A DNA stretch of 64,000 nt from Gemmatimonadota bacterium (GTDB lineage: Bacteria; Gemmatimonadota; Gemmatimonadetes; Gemmatimonadales; Gemmatimonadaceae), in contig JAJTGR010000004.1 of assembly GCA_021299375.1 (NCBI GenBank), positions 1 through 64,000 of the forward strand. The letters are read 5' to 3'. Shown here in pieces: positions 12,353 through 17,552 of this stretch. The notes under the pieces were generated by a model that was not told where the DNA came from, searched no databases, and saw nothing but the letters and a program-made list of their open reading frames with translations. The translations under genes and the position numbers were made by a program. Every line of letters starts with the position of its first letter. Position 1 is the stretch's first letter.

Positions 12353-12440
12353 CCAGGCCCCGGGCAGATCACCGACTGAACCATTCCCCCCCCGAGCGCA
12401 CCCTGTGGAGGTCATGTCCACATCCTCAACGGGAGATCCG

Positions 12441-14042
12441 ATGCGCCTCGTGTTCGTGCAGCCCAATTATCATGCCGGCGGCGCCGAGATCGCCGGCAAC
12501 TGGCCGCCGGGCTGGGTCGCCTACATCGGGGGCGCCCTGAAGCACGCCGGGTTCACGGACATCACCTTCGTGGACGCGATGACCAACCACATCGACGACG
12601 AGTCGCTGCGGCAACGGCTCACGGAGCTCAAGCCCGACGCGGTGCTGGCCACGGCCATCACCCCCATGATCTACCAGGCGCAGCGCACCCTCCAGATCGC
12701 GCGCGAGGTGAATCCGGCCGCCCACACCATTCTCGGCGGCATTCACCCCACCTTCATGTACCAGCAAGTGTTCAATGAGGCGCCGTGGATTGATTACATC
12801 GTCCGCGGTGAAGGCGAGGAGATCATCGTCGAACTGATGAACCACCTGCGTGATGGCACCGCCCTCGCCACGCGGCGCGACATTCGCGGCATCGCGTTCG
12901 TGGAAGATGGCCAGGTGGTGGCCACACCGGCCCGCCCACCCATCGCCAACCTCGACGACCTCACCCCCGACTGGTCGCTGCTCGAGTGGGACAAGTACAT
13001 CTACATCCCGCTCAACTGCCGCGTGGCCGTGCCCAACTTCGCCCGCGGGTGTCCGTTCACCTGCCGCTTCTGCTCGCAGTGGAAGTTCTGGCGCAAGTAC
13101 CGCACCCGCGACCCGAAGAAGTTCGTCGACGAGATCGAAGTGCTGGTGAGGGAGCACAAGGTCGGCTTCTTCATCCTCGCCGACGAAGAGCCCACGATCA
13201 ACAAGAAGAAGTTCATCGCGCTGTGCAATGAACTCATCGAGCGCAACCTGCCGGTGCACTGGGGCATCAACACCCGCGTCACCGACATCCTGCGCGACGA
13301 GAAGGAGCTGCCGCTCTACCGCAAGGCAGGGCTCGTGCACGTGTCGCTCGGCACCGAGGCCGCCGCCCAGCTCAAGCTGGACCGCTTCCGCAAGCAGACG
13401 ACGCTCGAGCAGAACAAGCGCGCCATCACGATGCTGAAGGACGCCGGCATGATCGCCGAGGCGCAGTTCATCATCGGGCTCGAAAACGAGACGCCGGAGA
13501 CCATCGAGGAGACATACAAGTACTCGCAGGACTGGCAGCCCGACATGGCCAACTGGAACATGTACACGCCGTGGCCCTTTGCGGAGCTGTTCCAGGAGCT
13601 GGGGGAGCGCGTGGAAGTGCGCGACTACGCCAAGTACAACTTCGTCACGCCCATCATCCAGCCCGATGCGATGACGCGCGACCAGGTGCTCAAGGGCGTG
13701 CTGCGCAACTACGCGCGCTTCTACGCCAAGAAGGCATTCCTCTCGTACCCGTGGCAGAAGGACCCGTTCAAGCGGAAGTACCTGCGTGGCTGCCTGCGCG
13801 CCTTCGCCAGGACCACCATCAACAAGAAGTTCTACGACCTCGAGCGCCTCAAGTTCAACGGCACCGGTATCGACGCGGACTTCGGCTTCGACGAGGACAA
13901 GGTGTTCACGCGCGAGGAGCTGCGCACCATGAGCGAGGCGCGCCCCGAGTTCGCCGCCGACGTGGACTTCTCCGGCAGCGTGCCGGTGCTGGGTCACGCC
14001 CCGTCGCGGCCACAGGAGGAGGAAGCCGTCCGTGCCTGCTAG
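12441..14042 (+). CDS. bchE: Mg-protoporphyrin IX monomethyl ester anaerobic oxidative cyclase
   Basis: 533 aa. BchE builds ring E of bacteriochlorophyll without O2, using radical SAM and cobalamin. The N-terminal B12-binding half begins with the BchE signature [18 protein letters not shown]. The SAM cluster motif CPFTCRFC has C204, C208 and C211, followed by [10 protein letters not shown] and [11 protein letters not shown] as in known BchE. The ATG at 12441 was chosen because GGGAG lies 5-8 nt upstream and homologues start here; earlier starts at 12405 and 12414 lack this. It overlaps hemN by 11 nt. Other radical SAM-B12 proteins share the fold but not these strings. Confidence 0.93.
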
Positions 14043-15396
14043 CCTGCACGTCCCCAATGTGACGCCCGCGCTGCTCGCCAAGTACGACATCCCGGGGCCG
14101 CGCTACACCAGCTATCCTGCCGTGCCCGACTGGCACGGCGCCTTCGACGCCGACGCCTGGGCCAGTCACCTCGCGGTGCTTGGCGCCACCGACGCGCCGC
14201 TGGCGCTGTACGTGCACCTCCCCTTTTGCGCCTCCAAGTGCCTGTACTGCGGTTGCAACGCCACCGTCACCACGCGCACCGGGATCGTCGAGCGGTATCT
14301 TTCGCGGCTTGGCACCGAGCTGCAGCTCCTCGCCCGGGCCATGGGCGAGCGGCCGCGCGTCGTGGAGATGCACTGGGGCGGTGGCACGCCCAACTTCCTG
14401 CTCGACGGCCAGATCGAACGGCTGCACGACCTCCTGCTGGGCACCTTCGACATCGACGGCCGCACGGAGCTGTCGGTGGAGGCCGACCCCCGCCTCGTGA
14501 CGCGGTCGCAGCTGCGCACGCTGCGCCAGCTCGGGTTCACGCGCATCAGCTACGGCGTGCAGGATCTCGATCCGCTGGTGCAGGAGGCCATCGGGCGTAT
14601 CCAGCCGGTGTCGCTTGTGCGCGATGCGGTCACGCTGGCGCGCGAGGAGGGATTCTCGGGGCTCAACCTCGACCTCATCTACGGCCTGCCGCACCAGACC
14701 CCCGATCGCTTCGCCCGTACGGTGGAGGGCGCGCTTTCGTACAGCCCAGACCGGGTCGCCTGCTTCGGGTACGCCCACGTGCCGTGGATGCGTGCCCATC
14801 AGAAGCGCATCGACGAATCGGTGCTGCCCATCGCGTGGGAGCGGTTCGCCCTGTTCCGTGATGCCGTGACGCGCTTCGTCGATGCGGGATACCGGTGGAT
14901 CGGCATCGATCACTTTGCCCGTCCGGAGGACCCGCTGGCCCTCGCCGCCGACGCGGGACGGCTGCACCGCAACTTCATGGGCTACACCACGCGCAGCGGT
15001 GAGCACCTGCTGGGCGTGGGCACGAGCTCCATCTCCGAAGTGGGCGGCTGGTTCGCGCAGAACGCCCCCGAACTCGGTGACTGGCAGCGGGCCATCGACG
15101 CCGGGCACCTGCCGGTCGCGCGTGGCCACGTGCTGAGCGACGACGACACGGCGCGCCGCACCGCCATCGCGCACCTCATGTGCAACGCCGAGCTCCCTTT
15201 CGACCTGTTCGTGGGCGATGTAGACGCGCTGGTGGACCGCTACGAGCAGTTTGCCGCCGACGGGTTGATCGAGTTCGAACCTGATCGCATCACGGTCACA
15301 CCGCTCGGCCGCTTCTTCCTCCGTAACCTGGCTTTCCCGCTCGATGCGTATCGTAGCGCCACCGACGGTCCCCGGCGCTTCTCCCGCGCCGTCTAG
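14032..15396 (+). CDS. hemN: oxygen-independent coproporphyrinogen III oxidase
   Basis: 454 aa, close to the usual length. A radical SAM enzyme that decarboxylates coproporphyrinogen III to protoporphyrinogen IX. The HemN cluster motif [10 protein letters not shown] gives C66, C70, C73 and C75. [10 protein letters not shown] and [14 protein letters not shown] follow as in the family. It starts with GTG after a strong AGGAGGAGG site that lies inside the bchE 3' end. It supplies the pathway that HemJ and BchE continue, so the operon order is logical for low-oxygen pigment synthesis. Confidence 0.94.
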
Positions 15397-16012
15397 CCCG
15401 GCCGCGCAGGCCGATACCGGCGGGCCGATCGCCCGCATCGGCCCCAACGCCATCATCCAGTCCGTGTACGTGCTGCGAGACCGGCTGGGAGCAGGCGAAG
15501 CCGATCGGCTGCTGCGCCGCGCCACCGGCTACGACCTGGCCCACCTGCCGCACGAGATGGTGGACGAACGGGAGCCACTGGCGCTGGTGCGCACCGTCAT
15601 GGATGCCCTGGGCGAGCCGCAGGCCACCCGCGTACTGCGTGAGGCAGGGCGACACACCGCCGACTACCTGCTCGCCCACCGCATCCCCCGCCCTGCCCAG
15701 TGGATCATGCGCGCCGCGCCGCGCCGCGTCGGGCTGGCGCTGCTGCTGCGGGCCATGGCGGCCAACGCCTGGACCTTTGCCGGAAGCGCCACCTTCACCG
15801 TGGTCCGTGCCCGCGCGGTCACGACACTCAGCTTTCACGACTGCGCCATGTGCCGCGGCATCGAGTCCGCCGGCCCCATGTGCGACTTCTATGCCGGCAC
15901 TTTCGAGCACCTCACTCGTGCACTCGTGACGCCCCGCGCCGAGGTGGTGGAGGTGGAGTGCCAGGCCCACGGGGGCCGTGACTGCCGCTTCGAGGTGCGC
16001 GGCATACATTAG
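15344..16012 (+). CDS. bchJ: BchJ-like V4R domain protein
   Basis: 222 aa. The region of about 120-220 matches the 4-vinyl reductase (V4R) domain, with the cysteine-rich FHDCAMCRGI and a CQAHGGRDCRFEV ending. BchJ was first named a vinyl reductase and is now thought to be an accessory or carrier for Mg-porphyrin intermediates. The first 30 residues are Pro/Ala-rich and overlap the hemN 3' end by 53 nt in another frame. A downstream start is possible. Its position between hemN and hemJ supports a tetrapyrrole role. Confidence 0.85.
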   Translation: MRIVAPPTVPGASPAPSSPAAQADTGGPIARIGPNAIIQSVYVLRDRLGAGEADRLLRRATGYDLAHLPHEMVDEREPLALVRTVMDALGEPQATRVLREAGRHTADYLLAHRIPRPAQWIMRAAPRRVGLALLLRAMAANAWTFAGSATFTVVRARAVTTLSFHDCAMCRGIESAGPMCDFYAGTFEHLTRALVTPRAEVVEVECQAHGGRDCRFEVRGIH

Positions 16013-16017
16013 GCCGC

Positions 16018-16452
16018 ATGGCCGACACCTACCTGTGGATCAAGGCGTTTCACGTCATTGCTGTCATCGCGTGGTACGCCGGGCTGTTCTACATCTTCCG
16101 CCTGTTCGTCTATCACGTGCAGAAGCGCGACGAACCCGCCGTGGTGGCCACCCTCGAAGTCATGGAGCGGCGGCTCATGCGCGGGATCATGATGCCCGCC
16201 ATGGTCGTGTCCCTTGGGCTGGGCACCTGGATGCTGACGCTCAACCCGTCGCTACTGCGCATGCCGTGGATGCACATGAAGCTGGGGGCCATCGTGTTCC
16301 TGCTCGGCTATCACGGCTTTTCGTCGTACACCCGCAAGCGGTTCCTGAACGGGGATTACTTTCTCAGTGAGACCGCCTGCCGCTGGATCAACGAGGCGCC
16401 CACGGTGCTGCTCTTCTTCATCGTGATCGGCGTGATCGTGCGGACGCCGTGA
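16018..16452 (+). CDS. hemJ: HemJ-type protoporphyrinogen IX oxidase
   Basis: 144 aa with four hydrophobic helices, typical for HemJ. The conserved start is present (WIKAFHVIAVIAWYAGLFY, with the His of helix 1). So are the charged loop before RGIMMPAMV and the HMKLG motif. It oxidises protoporphyrinogen IX to protoporphyrin IX, directly after HemN and before Mg or Fe insertion. It follows bchJ by 5 bp and closes the four-gene block. The next signal is a separate promoter at 16474. Confidence 0.93.
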   Translation: MADTYLWIKAFHVIAVIAWYAGLFYIFRLFVYHVQKRDEPAVVATLEVMERRLMRGIMMPAMVVSLGLGTWMLTLNPSLLRMPWMHMKLGAIVFLLGYHGFSSYTRKRFLNGDYFLSETACRWINEAPTVLLFFIVIGVIVRTP

Positions 16453-16473: not shown

Positions 16474-16503
16474 TTGACAGTCGCGGCCGGCCCCGTCTAC
16501 TTT
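16474..16503 (+). promoter_or_regulatory. sigma70-type promoter before the Mn2+ riboswitch
   Basis: TTGACA (16474-16479), an 18-nt spacer and TACTTT (16498-16503). Transcription would begin near 16510, exactly where the riboswitch P1 helix starts. This is one of the best -35/-10 pairs in the window. Confidence 0.8.
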
Positions 16504-16510
16504 TCCCGCG

Positions 16511-16640
16511 CTTGGTTGGGGAGTAGCCGTTCGCCGCGGTTGCGGCGAAGCACACGATCGTCAGTCCGAGGCGCTGCCTCCGGTCGTGTCCCTGCAGAGT
16601 CCACCCGCACGTCGGGGGTCTGCAGTGCGCGAGACCACCG
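16511..16640 (+). promoter_or_regulatory. yybP-ykoY manganese riboswitch
   Basis: All consensus parts occur in order. P1 is TGGT (16513-16516) with ACCA (16634-16637). The conserved 5' loop GGGGAGTAGC is at 16518-16527. P2 is the hairpin TTCGCCGC/GCGGCGAA. P3 is ACACGA paired with TCGTGT, enclosing the conserved TCGTCA and, after a GAGGC/GCCTC hairpin, the opposite CGG. The next helix is CTGCAGA/TCTGCAG, and the conserved 3' strand GAGACC is at 16631-16636. In known members Mn2+ joins the two loops and switches the downstream gene on. No obvious terminator lies between the aptamer and the gene, so translational control is more likely. Confidence 0.9.
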
Positions 16641-16721
16641 CACGTTCATTCGTGCCGTGGCTCGTCGCGTCTCCCCAGGTGACGTCCATGGTGCAGTCGT
16701 CCACGCCCATATCGACGTCCC

Positions 16722-17552
16722 ATGCCGCTCTGGCTCCTGCTCCATCGTCTGCTGCGCCGTTCGGTGCAGCGCATCCTGCGCCCCGGTGCGCGCCGCTCCC
16801 TCGCGCTGTGGCTGGCGCCCGTGTCGTGGTGTGCCTCCGGTTCACTTGCGTGGGGGCTTCTGGCCGCTCCCGCCATGCTCGGGGCCCAGCAGACCGTCAT
16901 CAATGCGCCCTCGGTGGACCAGACGGCCAAGGGACGGGTCTTTGCACTCCACGAGTCGCAGGTGCGCTCCTGGGGCGACACGAGCTTCTGGCAGACCACG
17001 CAGTTCGTGACGTACGGCGTGACGAAGCACGTGGAGCTCGCCATCACCGCGTACAACCTCGGCACACCGCTCAAGCGCGTCGCCACGCTCGGCGTGGGGT
17101 GGAAGGGTGCCGCGGACATCCCGGGCCTTGCCACACAGGCACCAGCGTGGGAACCCAAGGTGGGGGCTGGGCAGATGGTCGCCATCCCGCTGCGTGGGGA
17201 GCGGCTCGGGGTGTGGAGCTATCTGCAGACGAGCGTCCGGTTGCCCGTGCTGCGCACACGGCTCATGGCCGGTGTCAGCGACGGTCCGCCCGCCATGTTC
17301 GGCAAAGCCACCACCCACTTCATGGGCAGCTTCGAGCAACCGCTCGCCGCACTCCCCGGCGCGCTCGGCCACGCGTTGCACGACATCACCCTGCTCGGGG
17401 AATGGTGGGCCGGTCAACACGAGTTCGCAGACTTCGTGCCTGGTTTCAACTGGCACCGCGGCAAGACCGTCGTCATCGTAGGCTACAAGCTCGCCAATAC
17501 GCCGGGCACCCGCGGCGATGGGCTTGTGTTCGAGATTGGGCGAACGTTCTGA
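16722..17552 (+). CDS. exported, probable outer-membrane protein under Mn2+ riboswitch control
   Basis: 276 aa, family not recognised. A long basic N-terminus (residues 1-30) precedes a hydrophobic stretch and a cleavage-like site at LGAQQ (about 56), so it is exported. The rest has alternating amphipathic strands such as KHVELAITAYNLG, VWSYLQTSVRLPVL and KTVVIVGYKLAN, and ends in EIGRTF. A C-terminal Phe is typical of outer-membrane barrels. It has no multi-helix membrane region and does not resemble MntP, TerC, UPF0016 or P-type ATPase exporters. The start has no clear Shine-Dalgarno. It is the only gene downstream of the riboswitch; dfrA and thyA face it. Confidence 0.7.
   Translation: MPLWLLLHRLLRRSVQRILRPGARRSLALWLAPVSWCASGSLAWGLLAAPAMLGAQQTVINAPSVDQTAKGRVFALHESQVRSWGDTSFWQTTQFVTYGVTKHVELAITAYNLGTPLKRVATLGVGWKGAADIPGLATQAPAWEPKVGAGQMVAIPLRGERLGVWSYLQTSVRLPVLRTRLMAGVSDGPPAMFGKATTHFMGSFEQPLAALPGALGHALHDITLLGEWWAGQHEFADFVPGFNWHRGKTVVIVGYKLANTPGTRGDGLVFEIGRTF

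Follow-up and report, generated by a model that had tools for sequence, protein, structure and literature searches.

A divergent yybP-ykoY-type RNA precedes a predicted outer-membrane barrel gene in Gemmatimonadota

In the 64,000-nucleotide stretch of Gemmatimonadota DNA analysed here (the window), the leader at positions 16514-16676 is best explained as a yybP-ykoY Mn2+ riboswitch that controls a single gene, whose predicted product is a 12-stranded barrel, and that probably belongs to a manganese-responsive envelope-maintenance regulon. We hold this reading with good confidence. This RNA adds a new, divergent representative to a known class and brings with it a new type of target. Of greater interest is the regulon. 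Known manganese riboswitches have been described mainly as controllers of exporters. The RNA class, its conservation, the competing structures, the barrel fold and the target genes were computed directly, and Mn-responsive control of the barrel gene is likely, judging from sequence.

Architecture of the leader RNA

All of the riboswitch parts named in a preliminary description of this DNA, namely the L1 and L3 loops and the pairing helices, are present at the locus, as follows.

16514-16639, plus strand: yybP-ykoY-type (Mn2+) riboswitch aptamer, identified by the R1 model, covariation and reciprocal matches (RF00080 score 14.9 bits, below 45)
16514-16519, plus strand: 5′ strand of P1, GGU(U)GG, pairing with CCACC at 16635-16639
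16518-16527, plus strand: 5′ half of L1, GGGGAGUAGC, the last two bases of which form an inner pair with 16629-16630
16530-16549, plus strand: P2 hairpin
16550-16591, plus strand: P3 with the L3 bulge UCAGUCC (7 nt, 16561-16567)
16592-16625, plus strand: P4 hairpin, with six of seven pairs changed on both sides
16629-16634, plus strand: 3′ half of L1, GCGAGA (the GCGAGACC motif)

The L1 motif, consisting of GGGGAGUAGC and GCGAGACC closed by P1, is present, and the pairs of P1 are kept with changes. Specifically, a G-C pair is replaced by A-U in two copies of the RNA, and the orthologous loci L006 and L007 carry a CGU/ACG variant. The bulges of the solved Mn riboswitches from L. lactis (UCAAUUC) and X. 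oryzae (ACAUACU) are each 7 nt long (PMC6754395), and by comparison with these L3 has the same length and likewise an A at position 3. By sequence, this residue, A16563, would be the counterpart of A41, which contacts Mn in L. lactis. In addition, A58 and C57 of the L3 region are invariant in 28 copies. The 7 nt L3 is thus common to this RNA and to the L. lactis (4Y1I) and X. oryzae (6N2V) riboswitches; those RNAs regulate Mn exporter genes, whereas the RNA described here is a predicted binder.

Membership in the yybP-ykoY class

The Rfam yybP-ykoY model (RF00080) yields no match above its cut-off in the window. Taken literally, the covariance-model check put forward in the preliminary description therefore failed: the segment at 16516-16626 scores 14.9 bits against a gathering threshold of 45, a value that is a detection limit rather than a biological trait of the class, and it is the top-ranked place in the whole genome. 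Scans of the window and of 20 loci with gathering and E-value settings likewise never brought RF00080 over the cut-off. The model misses the class across the whole phylum, in that none of 298 Gemmatimonadota genomes passes and the matches are mostly short, partial and low in score. The printed RF00080 consensus includes GGGGAGUAGC and the P3/L3 region and lacks both the P1 pairs and the 3′ GCGAGACC, so that a failure of sensitivity is a likelier reading of the low score than non-membership. Other low-scoring Rfam matches in the window and the 20 loci were rejected as chance.

A search for the spaced motif GGGGAGUAGC-N72..102-GCGAGACC returned 28 occurrences in 18 of 61 related genomes, three of them in the source genome, versus two for the reversed control. 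The L1 halves are part of the collecting pattern, and the invariance of L1, including its 5′ half, is by construction and not independent evidence; P3/L3, P2, P4 and the outer part of P1 lie outside the pattern. Two subtypes can be distinguished among the copies, A2 (which includes the window copy) and A3. Aligning all 28 together with MAFFT gave nothing usable for folding because the subtypes differ in P2 and P4, and the set was split into A2 and A3.

Within A2, 17 of 36 proposed pairs are changed on both sides with pairing kept, a result reached by none of 500 shuffles, and the covariation signal is lost when the partner strand is slid. The A3 alignment agrees with A2 except in one of five measures, which was reached by 19 of 500 shuffles. 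Two models, R1 and R2, were built from Gemmatimonadota copies only, without any known riboswitch. R1 recognizes the window copy, which is part of its own alignment, with an E-value of 2.1e-27. In 24 kb of E. coli K-12 sequence, taken as two 12-kb pieces, R1 found only the mntP and alx leaders (E 1.2e-7 and 2.1e-7), and R2 gave exactly the same two matches.

The proposition that GC-rich DNA produced the hairpins and the motif by chance could draw on the low Rfam score and on the unremarkable thermodynamic stability of the aptamer alone (z -1.0). It is refuted, and left with negligible probability, by the motif counts relative to the reversed control, by the covariation, by the reciprocal matches and by the placement of 90 sites in the phylum before a few gene families. 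The assignment to the yybP-ykoY class is instead backed by the reciprocal model test, the L1/L3 anatomy and the switch architecture, and the window RNA is very likely a divergent member of this Mn2+-sensing class. It resembles the RF00080 class in its L1 halves, its 7 nt L3 with the Mn-contacting A, its four helices and its anti-P1 competitor. It differs from that class in scoring below the Rfam cut-off, in its GC-rich helices, in the bulged U of P1, in having no U-tract and in having an outer-membrane barrel, not an inner-membrane exporter, as its target.

Competing structures downstream of the aptamer

Two segments 3′ of the aptamer can pair with parts of it.

16628-16669, plus strand: anti-P1 hairpin of 42 nt, competing with P1 and the 3′ half of L1
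16671-16676, plus strand: CUCCCC, complementary to GGGGAG of L1 and forming a second competing pairing in predicted folds

The anti-P1 hairpin has a folding energy of -23.7 kcal/mol (z -3.4), matched by none of 200 shuffles, and a C-rich stretch similar to CUCCCC occurs in most close orthologues. For an RNA ending at 16650, forcing the aptamer fold costs approximately 5 kcal/mol; extension of the RNA to 16680 raises this to approximately 24. Furthermore, P1 and the anti-P1 hairpin vary in step, as seen with the CGU/ACG variant of L006 and L007. No U-tract is present 3′ of the hairpin at this locus or in the barrel class, and no clear ribosome-binding site is found at the barrel locus. Equivalent hairpins occur in the other target classes, except that SPFH leaders mostly have no obvious one in the stretch scanned. 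The terC and htpX copies mostly carry classical anti-P1 terminators, many with U-tracts, which is the layout of an ON switch.

These features suggest the following mechanism, in which we infer both Mn binding here and the ON direction. When Mn2+ is scarce, the anti-P1 hairpin and the GGGGAG/CUCCCC pairing would break P1 and both L1 halves, and expression would be low. When Mn2+ is in excess, L1 would lock to L3, P1 would be stabilized, the hairpin would be prevented from forming and the gene would be on. Since no U-tract follows the hairpin, the output would more likely be translational or Rho-dependent than intrinsic termination.

The barrel gene and its linkage to the RNA

One gene lies downstream of these structures.

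16722-17552, plus strand: gene for a 276-aa signal-peptide protein, a predicted 12-stranded outer-membrane beta-barrel, with the mature part from about residue 56

The outer-membrane-like character proposed in the preliminary description holds up: a signal peptide is present, the amphipathic strands end in Phe, the C-terminal residue is likewise Phe, and there are no transporter helices. AlphaFold2, supplied with 17 sequences, predicts 12 strands after the signal peptide with a mean pLDDT of 82 (mostly above 90 in the barrel), and the product is accordingly predicted to be a 12-stranded outer-membrane barrel. The protein matches no Pfam or NCBIfam family, and a PDB sequence search with it returned nothing meaningful. 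The closest solved folds are FapF (5O68), the COG4313 channel (4RL8) and the KdgM porins, all 12-stranded barrels (VIA Z 17.5-18.6 over 167-198 residues). Their likeness is one of fold only, with about 8-9% identity and no sequence family found in common, and their functions are not transferable to this protein.

The RNA precedes seven of seven genus orthologues of the barrel gene (R1, E < 1e-18); these orthologues are closely related, with synteny in several cases, and do not count as independent of one another. The suggestion that this RNA class has acquired a new target is sustained, with the barrel as a new kind of target conserved in all seven. Searches with R1 found no such RNA before barrel paralogues or before homologues outside the genus; the latter occur in Acidobacteria, a myxobacterium and a melainabacterium. 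Because barrel homologues elsewhere lack the RNA, it was apparently recruited to the barrel gene in one clade.

A genuine RNA might also have a merely passive neighbour in the barrel gene, the switch having decayed or regulating nothing useful, as the missing U-tract and the restriction of the pairing to one genus would allow. We regard this as very unlikely, given that RNA, anti-P1 hairpin and gene stay together in orthologues down to 67-68% identity with the window protein and that P1 and the hairpin co-vary (CGU/ACG in L006 and L007).

Two irregular barrel genes were seen along the way. The orthologue in G006 is split between two frames (L009/L010; L101), reflecting either a sequencing error or true decay. 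At L110:2911-4704 a homologue continues in frame into a part that by eye is glycine amidinotransferase-like, which represents a fusion or a missed stop.

The preliminary description suggested that the protein serves Mn handling in the outer membrane, as an efflux path or as an Mn-dependent shell. The position of the barrel behind an Mn riboswitch, the channel-like predicted fold of 12 strands and a distant fold likeness to the copper protein PcoB, one among many barrels, are in keeping with a dedicated Mn2+ channel or efflux route. However, the top fold matches are a protein-secretion pore, the COG4313 channel and sugar-acid porins, homologues in other phyla lack the Mn RNA, and no metal-binding motif was identified in the barrel. 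We therefore consider a dedicated Mn2+ path unlikely. The barrel is better accounted for by a wider envelope-maintenance regulon linked to Mn, since the RNA lies mostly before htpX and terC in the phylum. The barrel would probably be one effector of that regulon, perhaps a channel of importance when Mn is in excess.

Targets of the RNA across the phylum

Scanning 298 phylum genomes with R1 and R2, and adding earlier matches, gave 90 distinct RNA sites in 65 genomes. The commonest next gene is htpX (41 of 90, mostly with anti-P1 terminator-like hairpins, as in L034, L116, L119 and L124), followed by terC (22), an SPFH lipoprotein gene (8), the barrel gene (7) and an operon encoding a 177-aa protein and a Skp/OmpH-like protein (7). 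A P-type ATPase, a CDF exporter and a universal stress protein each follow once, and two sites are cut by contig ends. In the source genome, the three copies precede the barrel gene, the Skp/OmpH operon and htpX, and neither R1 nor R2 gives a convincingly scored RNA at its TerC and SPFH genes. Outside the phylum, the RNA was found in three of 149 acidobacterial genomes.

Several individual loci merit a brief record. The universal stress protein gene preceded by the RNA is in G112 (L126). An acidobacterial locus, L189, has the RNA followed by a gene that by eye is universal stress protein-like and then by terC. The first gene of the RNA-preceded Skp/OmpH operon, encoding the 177-aa protein (L025:1620-2150), belongs to no Pfam or NCBIfam family. 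On the minus strand of L183, at about 2265-2165, the leader of the SPFH gene of the source genome, scored by neither model, resembles by eye a decayed copy of the RNA (GAAGGGGCGCCGC ... GGAGACCACC).

The preponderance of quality-control genes among the targets (htpX, SPFH, Skp/OmpH) invites the alternative that the RNA keeps the yybP-ykoY scaffold and senses pH or a general envelope or transcription stress, with Mn incidental. Consistent with this alternative, the E. coli mntP riboswitch is tied, under Mn stress, to an alkalization circuit in the abstract of PMC9603457. Against it, L3 and the invariant Mn-contacting A are kept, and this RNA also stands before canonical exporter genes within the phylum, in some cases within one genome. 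For example, G087, G275 and G294 have the RNA before both terC and htpX, and copies at both genes in one genome make a single ligand likely. Canonical exporters under the same RNA, sometimes in the same genome as an htpX copy, support Mn2+ as that ligand, and we judge a different ligand to be decidedly improbable.

We lean modestly towards a general form of the manganese reading, in which the Gemmatimonadota Mn2+ riboswitch is the switch of an envelope-maintenance regulon (HtpX, SPFH, Skp/OmpH and the barrel) alongside TerC and other exporters. HtpX, SPFH, Skp/OmpH, TerC and cation exporters would be the further members in the phylum. With HtpX as the commonest target, together with SPFH, Skp/OmpH and the barrel, this target set would tie Mn sensing to envelope protein quality control. 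If true, these bacteria would use the Mn2+ level as an indicator of membrane-protein quality or of metalation stress.

In B. subtilis, the TerC proteins MeeF and MeeY co-purify with HtpX, FtsH, PrsA and the flotillins FloA and FloT, and FtsH becomes essential in cells without TerC proteins (PMC10550928). The Gemmatimonadota targets (terC, htpX, SPFH and Skp/OmpH) form a functional set similar to this TerC secretosome and independently echo the co-purification finding. The link in Bacillus is physical co-purification, whereas that in Gemmatimonadota is a common regulatory RNA, found by computation only. These genes provide entry points for testing why manganese is tied to the maintenance of membrane proteins. 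The open-access papers searched contained no report of a yybP-ykoY RNA before htpX, SPFH or Skp genes or before a gene for an outer-membrane barrel; only the TerC paper (PMC10550928) mentions yybP-ykoY together with htpX, and none does so with Gemmatimonadetes. On open-access text, these targets appear to be unreported.

Promoter and upstream genes

The leader is preceded by a candidate promoter.

16474-16503, plus strand: putative promoter, with a -35 element TTGACA at 16474-16479 and a weak -10 element TACTTT at 16498-16503

The preliminary description called this a good promoter, a view that stands for the TTGACA element, since sequence comparison finds TTGAC and the same -35/-10 spacing in close orthologues. 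It does not stand for the weak -10 element, and a consensus promoter scan gave no match at 16474-16503.

Directly upstream, at 12405-16452 of the window, lie bchE, hemN, bchJ and hemJ, as identified by NCBIfam equivalog matches, and this interval is the margin of a gene cluster for photosynthesis. The gene order hemN-bchJ-hemJ-RNA-barrel is retained in L097-L099. Among genomes of the genus, the barrel gene is present in six of ten with bchJ over the cut-off, versus one of 20 without.
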